64,000 bases of DNA from Nitrospira sp. (GTDB taxonomy: Bacteria > Nitrospirota > Thermodesulfovibrionia > Thermodesulfovibrionales > Dissulfurispiraceae): assembly GCA_002634385.1 (NCBI GenBank), contig NSJL01000008.1, positions 62,001 to 126,000 of the forward strand, in the 5' to 3' direction. A program made the position numbers and the translations under genes. Shown piece by piece: positions 56,186 through 58,579 of this stretch. The number at the start of each line of letters is the position of its first letter. The stretch's first letter is position 1. A model generated the notes under the pieces. The model saw only the letters and a list, made by a program, of their open reading frames with translations. It searched no databases and was not told the origin of the DNA.

Positions 56186-56557
56186 TCAAGATTTTTTCTT
56201 GCTCCGGTAATCCTCGACCGCCTTCCTGAGAGCATCGGCGCCGAGATTGGAGCAATGCATCTTCTGGGGCGGCAGCCCCCCCAGTTCCTGTGCAACCGCC
56301 TCTTTCGAGATGCTCAGTGCCTCGTCCAGGGTCTTTCCCTTGATCATTTCGGTGATCATGCTGCTCACTGCAATGGCGGCCCCGCATCCGAAGGTCCTGA
56401 ACTTCGCGTCCACGATCCTGTCGTTCTCCACCTTGATGAAGAGCTGCATGGCGTCTCCGCAGGTCGGATTGCCTTCCATTCCTACGCCGTCCGCATCGGG
56501 CATCTCCCCCACATTCCGGGGGTTCATGAAATGGTCCATCACCTTCTCAGAGTACAT
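56186..56557 (-). CDS. iscU: Fe-S cluster assembly scaffold
   Basis: 123 residues of the IscU/NifU N-terminal family. It assembles [2Fe-2S] or [4Fe-4S] clusters. The three scaffold cysteines are present (GNPTCGDAMQLF, FGCGAAIAVSSM, KMHCSNLGADAL) along with the N-terminal EKVMDHFMNPRNVGEM. The region lacks the HscA-binding LPPVK motif; it has GGLPPQKMHCS instead, as in NifU-type scaffolds from anaerobes. It lies 60 bases downstream of the cysteine desulfurase homologue. Partner proteins HscA/HscB are not in the window. Confidence 0.94.
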   Translation of the reverse strand: MYSEKVMDHFMNPRNVGEMPDADGVGMEGNPTCGDAMQLFIKVENDRIVDAKFRTFGCGAAIAVSSMITEMIKGKTLDEALSISKEAVAQELGGLPPQKMHCSNLGADALRKAVEDYRSKKKS

Positions 56558-56617: not shown

Positions 56618-57814
56618 TCAGCCCGTGTAGCACTTTTCCCCTTCGCCGCCTTCCCCCCACCCCTTCGCAAAGGGCGACATCATTCTCAGCTTCTGGATCA
56701 CCTCGACGAAGACCGCAAGGAAGTATTCCACATCCTCCACGGTATTCTCTTTCCCGAGGCTGAACACGATGGAACCCTGGGCCAGGGCGGTCGGAACGCC
56801 GAGGGACAGCAGCACGGGAGAAGACTTCAGCGCTTTGGACGAGCAGGCGGAACCGCTCGCCGCATAGATCCCCTTCATGGAGAGCATAAGCAGCATCGCC
56901 TCCCCCTCGATAAACTCCACCACGAAGCTCGCATGATGCGGGAGCCTCTTTTCCGGATGGCCGGTGAGATATACGTTGGGAAGGCGCAGGGTTCCCTGGA
57001 TGATCCTGTCGCGCAGGCTTCTACAGTGCTCTATACGGTCTTGCAGCTCTTCCGCGGCAAAAACCGCGGCTTTCCCCATTCCCACGATTGCAGGCACATT
57101 CTCCGTACCCGCCCTTCTGCCCCCTTCCTGTATCCCCCCATAGATGAGGGGGACAACCCGGAGCCCCTCCCTGATATAGAGGGCGCCCGCTCCTTTCGGC
57201 CCGTAAAACTGATGGGCGGCCATGCTCATCAGGTCGACCCCCAGCTCCTTTACATCCACCGGGATATTCCCCACGGCGGCCACCGCATCCGTATGCAGCA
57301 CGATATTCCGCTCCCGTGCGAGGGCGGCAACCTCTCTGACGGGCTCAATCGTACCGATCTCGCTGCTGGCAAGGGCAAGGGAAATCACCACCGTTTCCCT
57401 GGTGATCGATGCCTTCAGTACCTCCGGGTCGACCATGCCATGCTGGTCGACGGGGAGATAGGTCACCACGAAACCACTCTTCTCGAGAAAGCGGGCGGCG
57501 TTGAGAATGGAATGGTGTTCTACCTTGGAGACGATAATATGCTTTCCCTGGTTCTGCTTTGCCAGGGCGACCCCCCTGAGGGCGAAGTTATTCGCCTCCG
57601 CTCCGCTCGAAGTGAAGACAATCGTGGAAGGCTTTGCATTGATAAGGGCAGCAACTTCCGCCCGTGCCCCCTCGATGGCGTCCCGTGCCTGCATCCCGAG
57701 ATCGTACACGCTGAGGGGATTCCCGAAGTTCTCCTTGAAGTACGGCATCATCGCGTCCAGCACCTCGGGGCGCAGGGGATTGGTGGCTACATGGTCAAAA
57801 TAGCATTTCCTCAT
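56618..57814 (-). CDS. Cysteine desulfurase homologue (NifS/IscS) with Gln in place of the PLP-binding Lys
   Basis: 398 residues with the NifS/IscS fold. Present are TSSGAEANNFALRG, VEHHSILNAARFLE, a PLP-stacking and Asp/Gln region (HTDAVAAVGNIPVDVKELG) and the catalytic-Cys loop ASGSACSSKALKSSPVLLS (C324). At the position where IscS has the Schiff-base lysine (SAHKxYGPKG), this protein reads AAHQFYGPKG, so Lys is replaced by Gln202. A similar loss is known in Archaeoglobus IscS (Asp). Classical desulfurase activity is therefore doubtful; it may act as an IscU partner using sulfide, or use another lysine. The operon is iscR, tusA-like, this gene, iscU. Confidence 0.9.
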   Translation of the reverse strand: MRKCYFDHVATNPLRPEVLDAMMPYFKENFGNPLSVYDLGMQARDAIEGARAEVAALINAKPSTIVFTSSGAEANNFALRGVALAKQNQGKHIIVSKVEHHSILNAARFLEKSGFVVTYLPVDQHGMVDPEVLKASITRETVVISLALASSEIGTIEPVREVAALARERNIVLHTDAVAAVGNIPVDVKELGVDLMSMAAHQFYGPKGAGALYIREGLRVVPLIYGGIQEGGRRAGTENVPAIVGMGKAAVFAAEELQDRIEHCRSLRDRIIQGTLRLPNVYLTGHPEKRLPHHASFVVEFIEGEAMLLMLSMKGIYAASGSACSSKALKSSPVLLSLGVPTALAQGSIVFSLGKENTVEDVEYFLAVFVEVIQKLRMMSPFAKGWGEGGEGEKCYTG

Positions 57815-57857: not shown

Positions 57858-58109
57858 TTACGCAACGGTCTTTCTTACATAAAACTTATAGAAATCCTCG
57901 TCCTCGTCCATACCGATAAACTCGTTCCCCGTCTTCTCGCACCATTGGGGAATATCCTCGAGTGCGCCGTCGTAATCGGTGAGGATCTCGAGCACCTGTC
58001 CTCTTTCGAGCTCCTTGATCATCTCGTCGAGCTTGAGGAGGTGCATGGGGCACATCATATAAACAATATCCGCCGTCACATCGGCCTTTATCCCCTGAAC
58101 AAACTTCAT
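57858..58109 (-). CDS. TusA/SirA/YedF-like sulfur-carrier protein
   Basis: 83 residues from an ATG at 58109 that overlaps the iscR stop (ATGA). The TusA-family Cys-Pro motif near the start of the first helix is visible as YMMCPMHLLKLDEMI (Cys20, Pro21), followed by the beta-alpha-beta pattern VLEILTDYDGALEDIPQWC. TusA-like proteins hand persulfide sulfur between enzymes, for example from desulfurases to tRNA modification or cluster assembly. Its place between iscR and the desulfurase homologue makes a sulfur-delivery role to IscU/NifS likely. Confidence 0.82.
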   Translation of the reverse strand: MKFVQGIKADVTADIVYMMCPMHLLKLDEMIKELERGQVLEILTDYDGALEDIPQWCEKTGNEFIGMDEDEDFYKFYVRKTVA

Positions 58110-58579
58110 GAAGGAACCTTGATCAGATTTTTTTTCCCTCCCGTCGGCGGGATATTCCTCTTTCCCTTCAGGAAGTCCCCTTCGAGGAGGTTTTGGAGAG
58201 TAATGGTCTGCAGAAAGGCCTCGATTTGCTCTCCAAGGGCTTTCCACAAAAGGTGGGTAACGCAATTATCGGCTCTGACACACCCCTCATCGGGATCGAG
58301 ACACGAAGTGATGGCTACCGGTCCCTCGAGCTCATCGAGAATTGCGGCGATGCTGATCTTTTCAGGAGGTCCGCTTAAAAGGTATCCGCCCCCCGGGCCC
58401 TTGACACTCCTGATAAGCCCTCCCTTCCTGAGCTTGTTAAGGATCTGCTCGAGGTAGGCTACGGAAACTTCCTGTTTTTCGGATATTTCCTTGATCGTCA
58501 CCGGCTTCTCGGGATATCCCCGGGCGATCTCATACATGGCCCTTACGCCGTACTGGCCCTTTGTCGACAGTTTCAGCAT
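58106..58579 (-). CDS. iscR: Rrf2-family Fe-S-responsive regulator (IscR-like)
   Basis: 157 residues. The N-terminal winged helix is typical of Rrf2 (KLSTKGQYGVRAMYEIA, SVAYLEQILNKLRKGGLIRS, KGPGGGYLL). Three cysteines in CLDPDEGCVRADNC (C-x6-C-x5-C) followed by THLLW correspond to the [2Fe-2S] ligands of IscR, though the first spacing is one residue longer than in E. coli. It would sense cluster supply and control its own operon (tusA-like, desulfurase homologue, iscU). It probably has a leaderless mRNA from the TTGACA promoter just upstream. Confidence 0.9.
   Translation of the reverse strand: MLKLSTKGQYGVRAMYEIARGYPEKPVTIKEISEKQEVSVAYLEQILNKLRKGGLIRSVKGPGGGYLLSGPPEKISIAAILDELEGPVAITSCLDPDEGCVRADNCVTHLLWKALGEQIEAFLQTITLQNLLEGDFLKGKRNIPPTGGKKNLIKVPS

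Follow-up and report, generated by a model that had tools for sequence, protein, structure and literature searches.

The window, that is, the whole stretch of 64,000 nucleotides analysed here, carries a four-gene operon in the order Rrf2 regulator, TusA-like carrier, NifS-like protein and IscU scaffold. All four genes lie on the minus strand with short gaps, and the start of the TusA-like gene overlaps the stop of the regulator gene (ATGA). The NifS-like protein lacks the lysine that binds pyridoxal phosphate (PLP) and is called NifS* in the following. The genes and the relevant codons are listed below, alignment columns being numbered as in E. coli IscS and residue counts referring to 70 class orthologues.

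58106..58579, minus strand: Rrf2/IscR-like regulator, first gene of the operon (Pfam Rrf2, 3.6e-39)
57858..58109, minus strand: TusA-like sulfur carrier, 83 aa, CP motif with Cys20 (Pfam TusA, 6.1e-20)
56618..57814, minus strand: NifS*, a NifS/IscS-fold protein without the PLP lysine, 398 aa (ORF translation, profile matches, AlphaFold2)
57599..57601, minus strand: Ala72, column of the PLP-phosphate residue Thr76 (A 65/70)
57362..57364, minus strand: Ser151, Asn155 column (S 47, P 18, R 4, G 1; no Asn)
57287..57289, minus strand: Asp176, E. coli D180 (70/70)
57278..57280, minus strand: Ala179, column of the PLP-O3' residue Gln183 (A 65/70)
57218..57220, minus strand: Ala199, column of the PLP-phosphate residue Ser203 (A 50, S 12, T 7, V 1)
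57209..57211, minus strand: Gln202, codon CAG (ctg on the plus strand), column of the Schiff-base Lys206 (alignment, class counts)
56843..56845, minus strand: Cys324, persulfide cysteine, E. coli C328 (70/70)
56765..56767, minus strand: Val350, column of the substrate-carboxylate residue Arg354 (V 69, I 1)
56186..56557, minus strand: IscU/NifU-type scaffold, 123 aa (NCBIfam NifU_clost, 205.8 bits, above the cut-off of 187.9)

The regulator scored 143.7 bits against NCBIfam IscR, below the cut-off. The TusA-like protein matched PF01206 with 71.3 bits (cut-off 28.6) and has the CP motif with the persulfide cysteine of this family; the IscU beside NifS* has all three cluster cysteines. NifS* itself matched TIGR03402 at 5.2e-145 but, with 483 bits, stayed below the curated cut-off of 530.75. 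By profile and by AlphaFold2 model it belongs to the NifS/IscS family and to the fold-type I structures. The model had a mean pLDDT of 91.2, with a flexible Cys loop and low values at residues 326-328. Among the solved structures nearest to it are those of human Nfs1, E. coli IscS and A. fulgidus IscS, with an rmsd of 1.1-1.9 to IscS/Nfs1 and of 1.1-1.4 to 4hvk, 4r5f and 4eb5 (46-47% identity).

The original prediction had placed Gln202 in the Schiff-base column. An alignment that included the paralogues agreed with this: Gln202 stands opposite K206 of E. coli IscS, a reference sequence with its landmark residues at the published numbers, and opposite D199 of A. fulgidus IscS, a sequence checked against PDB 4eb5. 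The lysine of the YGPKG motif (K207) was considered as a displaced Schiff-base lysine and rejected, since it aligns with the YGPKG lysine of the homologues themselves. The Cys324 loop "and other motifs" had been called intact as well; this stood for the loop, whereas most of the pocket for PLP and cysteine has changed, Arg354 included. In IscS, T76 and S203 bind the PLP phosphate and R354 binds the substrate carboxylate. NifS* carries A72 for T76, S150 for N154, S151 for N155, A179 for Q183, A199 for S203, Q202 for K206 and V350 for R354, and keeps H104 (H100 in the window), E156 (E152), D180 (D176), H205 (H201) and C328 (C324). Compared with group I cysteine desulfurases, it thus has the loop cysteine and lacks both the Schiff-base lysine and the substrate arginine. 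In IscS, Gln183 contacts O3' and Asp180 contacts N1 of PLP, and neither the K206A nor the Q183E variant of the E. coli enzyme has desulfurase activity (PMC9978102). The K206A variant still holds some PLP (PMC9978102), so that loss of the lysine alone is no proof that PLP is absent. Judged from its residues, NifS* very likely has no classical desulfurase activity.

The NifS* protein was searched in 60 related genomes, then in 150 genomes from the class and 118 from the phylum. The orthologues formed a clear group with 60-92% identity, separate from the paralogues at below about 50%. Among 70 distinct orthologues from the class (Nitrospirota, Thermodesulfovibrionia), none had Lys in the Schiff-base column (Q 65, E 2, M 1, L 1, I 1) and none had Arg in the Arg354 column, while Cys324 and the Asp180 and His104 columns were invariant; most of the pocket replacements are themselves conserved in the class. 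The dN/dS values of nine orthologue pairs lay between 0.020 and 0.079. With this conservation across 70 orthologues and these low ratios, NifS* has been maintained, with a conserved pocket of its own, and has not decayed. Chance, sequencing error and a decaying gene were rejected as explanations on the same figures. In two relatives (L022 in G010, L034 in G024), the genome search gave a single in-frame stop (TGA, TAG) within the match, either real or an effect of the match edge. H100, D176 and H201 were invariant in 70/70 despite the loss of most PLP contacts, and the pocket may still bind a ligand. The region of the arginine patch with which E. coli IscS contacts TusA (R220/223/225) held one arginine in 82/82 proteins of the class set; it was less constant in canonical proteins, a contrast too weak to use.

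The TusA-like carrier of the operon had also been part of the original prediction, and its link to NifS* proved far stronger than is visible from the window. A TusA-like gene on the same strand adjoins 66 of the 68 class orthologues with enough flanking sequence, 25/32 other loci without Lys and Arg, and 6/10 loci where Lys is kept and Arg lost; this makes 31/42 for the other Arg-less loci overall against 1/49 for canonical ones, adjacency counts which are phylogenetically clumped and do not represent independent events. The CP motif was present in all 113 neighbouring TusA matches. TusA lies upstream in Thermodesulfovibrionia and at two archaeal loci; most other bacteria have it downstream of IscU, and the link therefore survives changes in gene order. 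It also adjoins two of the three archaeal loci with Lys replaced by Asp (L191, L207). At three Arg-less loci of Aquificaceae neither TusA nor IscU was found adjacent, and adjacent TusA was absent from the f14/f17 and Asn-type Arg-less loci. At one f14 locus without adjacent TusA, inspection by eye revealed a DsrE-like ORF (L094:4160-4447) beside Rrf2, NifS* and IscU, possibly a replacement sulfur carrier.

A contig scan, complemented by added loci, found relatives without Lys or without Arg in Chloroflexota, Myxococcota/'Deltaproteobacteria', Planctomycetota, Bacillota, Aquificota, Thermodesulfobacteriota (Smithella), Saganbacteria, Aminicenantes and other Nitrospirota, and, among archaea, in Bathyarchaeota and Hadesarchaea. 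Across this wider family the residue in the Lys column is Q, L, M, P, R, N, D, E or I. All Lys-less proteins examined also lack Arg354. The converse is false: some Nitrospirota families retain Lys and have Leu, Val or Gln for Arg354. Lys is retained and Arg354 gone in L111, L112, L114, L116 and L091-L095, most of which have SGSTCTS or SASTCTM as the Cys loop. Such relatives may represent an intermediate stage in the loss of PLP chemistry or use another substrate.

The phylogeny was inferred with 19 active-site columns removed. This careful tree replaced a first quick one, whose topology was not optimal, a constrained tree being 49.6 log units better. It needs two origins of Arg loss, one bacterial and one archaeal, the latter including A. 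fulgidus IscS. A single origin appeared in 0/200 bootstrap trees; the AU test of one clade did not reject it (p = 0.165). The Lys/not-Lys character requires at least four changes by parsimony. With only two origins of Arg loss, possibly one, no independent-contrast test of its association with TusA is possible, and an independent-pairs test, with two usable pairs only, was uninformative. In the trees, the archaeal Lys-less group has as its sister L201, a Hydrothermarchaeota NifS that has both Lys and Arg and yet a TusA gene directly upstream.

Sixty related genomes were profiled for SufB/D (PF01458) and IscU/NifU (PF01592). Sixteen genomes of at least 90% completeness (G018, G031, G038, G043 and G044 among them) contain NifS*, exactly one NifU_N gene, which stands beside NifS*, and no SUFBD match. 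The distance between the two genes is 2.3 kb in G015 and within about 0.5 kb in the other 15. The NifS*/IscU operon is probably the general scaffold system of such genomes, as it is the only recognisable one there. The genomes G039, G051 and G128 of family f10, all without NifS*, have a SufB-type scaffold and lack NifU_N altogether, contrary to most genomes of their order. The search for a second desulfurase with the lysine, suggested in the original prediction, was successful: the window genome has three Lys-bearing paralogues (L001, L002, L004), and most genomes with NifS* and a single NifU_N gene also keep a Lys-bearing NifS elsewhere. In G030 (98% complete), no canonical desulfurase was found among the PF00266 matches; the second match proved on inspection to be an aminotransferase of the alanine-glyoxylate type. 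The window genome further has a dsrA match of 528 bits, consistent with a sulfate or sulfite reducer. It contains two dsrAB-like loci (G000:C7:187132-189321 and C67:21802-23932), one with this strong score and one that scores lower (336 bits) and does not reach the dsrA cut-off.

In E. coli, sulfur flows from IscS to TusA. We propose, with a probability of roughly 60%, that NifS* acts as a PLP-free persulfide relay or scaffold in a TusA-NifS*-IscU machine. NifS* would have dropped PLP-dependent cysteine desulfuration and kept the fold, the mobile loop with its persulfide cysteine and the IscU partner. The TusA-like carrier would be charged through sulfide/polysulfide chemistry or by a Lys-bearing desulfurase of the genome and would hand sulfane sulfur to C324, which in turn would give it to the IscU encoded by the adjacent gene or help to ligate the nascent cluster there. 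Sulfur would then pass from TusA to NifS* and on to IscU, the reverse of the E. coli flow; we infer this direction as the probable one, although operon adjacency cannot reveal which way the sulfur moves. The suggestion of another route of entry for sulfur, voiced in the original prediction with sulfide as the example, has gained support, and the gene neighbourhood agrees with persulfide donated by TusA no less well than with direct sulfide. On E. coli IscS, the sites for TusA and IscU are adjacent and overlapping, each reaching C328 (PMC11302665), and a relay between them is therefore sterically plausible on a protein of this fold. What speaks against the relay is the clumping of the TusA association on a phylogeny with two, possibly one, origins of Arg loss, and the Arg-less loci where adjacent TusA is missing (Aquificaceae; f14/f17 and Asn-type). 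The full conservation of the D180, H104 and H205 columns would also be odd for an empty pocket.

NifS* could, in the manner of A. fulgidus IscS, serve as a scaffold for cluster ligation only, with C324 as a temporary ligand of a [2Fe-2S] cluster and no sulfur carried. IscU would then build its cluster from free sulfide and iron, and TusA would belong to another sulfur route or to regulation. A. fulgidus IscS is itself Lys-less and inactive and gives a cysteine ligand to the IscU cluster (PMC7585200), it shares with NifS* the losses of the lysine, Q183 and R354 at 46-47% identity, and the dsrA match points to a sulfide-producing setting. Ligation alone leaves unexplained why TusA tracks Arg loss so closely, even at the archaeal Lys-to-Asp loci L191 and L207, and we regard it as unlikely, though the most serious competitor of the relay. 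The fully conserved D180, H104 and H205 columns, together with the PLP retained by E. coli K206A (PMC9978102), would also suit a protein that binds PLP non-covalently, with Asp176 under the ring nitrogen and His100 over the ring, for an altered chemistry whose substrate is perhaps a persulfide or another sulfur donor and not free cysteine. This possibility appears rather improbable to us: the residues for the PLP phosphate (T76/S203) and for O3' (Gln183) are mostly replaced, and with Arg354 gone there is no anchor for the carboxylate of a free amino acid.

The Lys-bearing NifS paralogues in the window genome and in most relatives might suggest that NifS* is a relic or a regulatory, inactive paralogue, which modulates IscU or a canonical desulfurase encoded elsewhere in the genome without carrying sulfur. 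We find this very hard to reconcile with a persulfide cysteine conserved in 70/70 orthologues under strong purifying selection, with NifS* adjoining the only IscU of many genomes, and with the missing canonical desulfurase among the PF00266 matches of G030. We consider it an even bet that there is a phylum-crossing ISC-type machine for iron-sulfur assembly whose core is free of PLP and cysteine desulfuration, with TusA as persulfide donor, NifS* as relay and IscU as scaffold. Its sulfur would flow opposite to that in E. coli, and in many Thermodesulfovibrionia it would form the sole recognisable scaffold system, IscU-type and SUF-free.

In annotation pipelines the genes will appear as cysteine desulfurases, with cysteine as the supposed source of Fe-S cluster sulfur. 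Should the proposal hold, a large group of anaerobes would build their clusters from persulfide carried by TusA or from sulfide, and the old question of how sulfide feeds anaerobic cluster assembly would become testable with three small proteins. The homologues also offer a natural series in the dismantling of a PLP site, with Arg lost throughout and Lys lost or kept according to lineage. Our literature search, incomplete in coverage, brought up no paper that describes a Lys-less family linked to TusA or its part as partner of the main scaffold, nor one for the PDB series 9wep to 9wfy.

IscS proteins without the lysine are known from A. fulgidus and, as IscS1, from Methanosarcina acetivorans (PMC7585200); for the latter, likeness to NifS* consists in the absence of the essential lysine, by the cited description. 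A. fulgidus IscS (4eb5, 4hvk; D199K mutant 4r5f) had been named in the original prediction and is indeed an inactive precedent. Lys is replaced, Cys kept and the fold the same; Gln183 has become Ala and Arg354 Leu, two positions also lost in NifS*; and both proteins have an IscU partner, which for NifS* is encoded alongside and carries the cluster cysteines. It differs from NifS* by having Asp and not Gln in the Lys column, and it keeps Thr76, Asn155 and Ser203, which NifS* lost. Its branch is archaeal, and a common origin of the losses found no bootstrap tree (0/200) but was compatible with the AU test (p = 0.165). The NifS homologue of Aquificaceae (PDB 9wfy, 9wfe, 9wfb, 9wf8, 9wew, 9wer, 9wep) falls into the same Arg-less bacterial clade as NifS*. 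Entry 9wfy has the natural Aquificaceae residues, Leu in the Lys column, Val for Arg, Arg for Asn155 and Pro for Gln183, whereas the other members, judged by sequence only, are near-identical chains to which canonical pocket residues were added stepwise, apparently by engineering. Unlike NifS*, the three Aquificaceae loci have no TusA or IscU gene adjacent. E. coli IscS in its complexes with TusA and IscU (3lvj, 3lvl) resembles NifS* in fold, Cys loop and both partners; it is, however, PLP-dependent and the sulfur donor to TusA, roles which we propose to be swapped in NifS*. The minimal Fe-S systems SMS (SmsCB) and MIS are, like the machine proposed here, anaerobic and minimal, and SMS uses sulfide (PMC12192291). 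Both differ from it, since MIS is described with a cysteine desulfurase and SMS without IscS and IscU. All in all, IscS without its lysine is already known, and the TusA gene partner is the new part.
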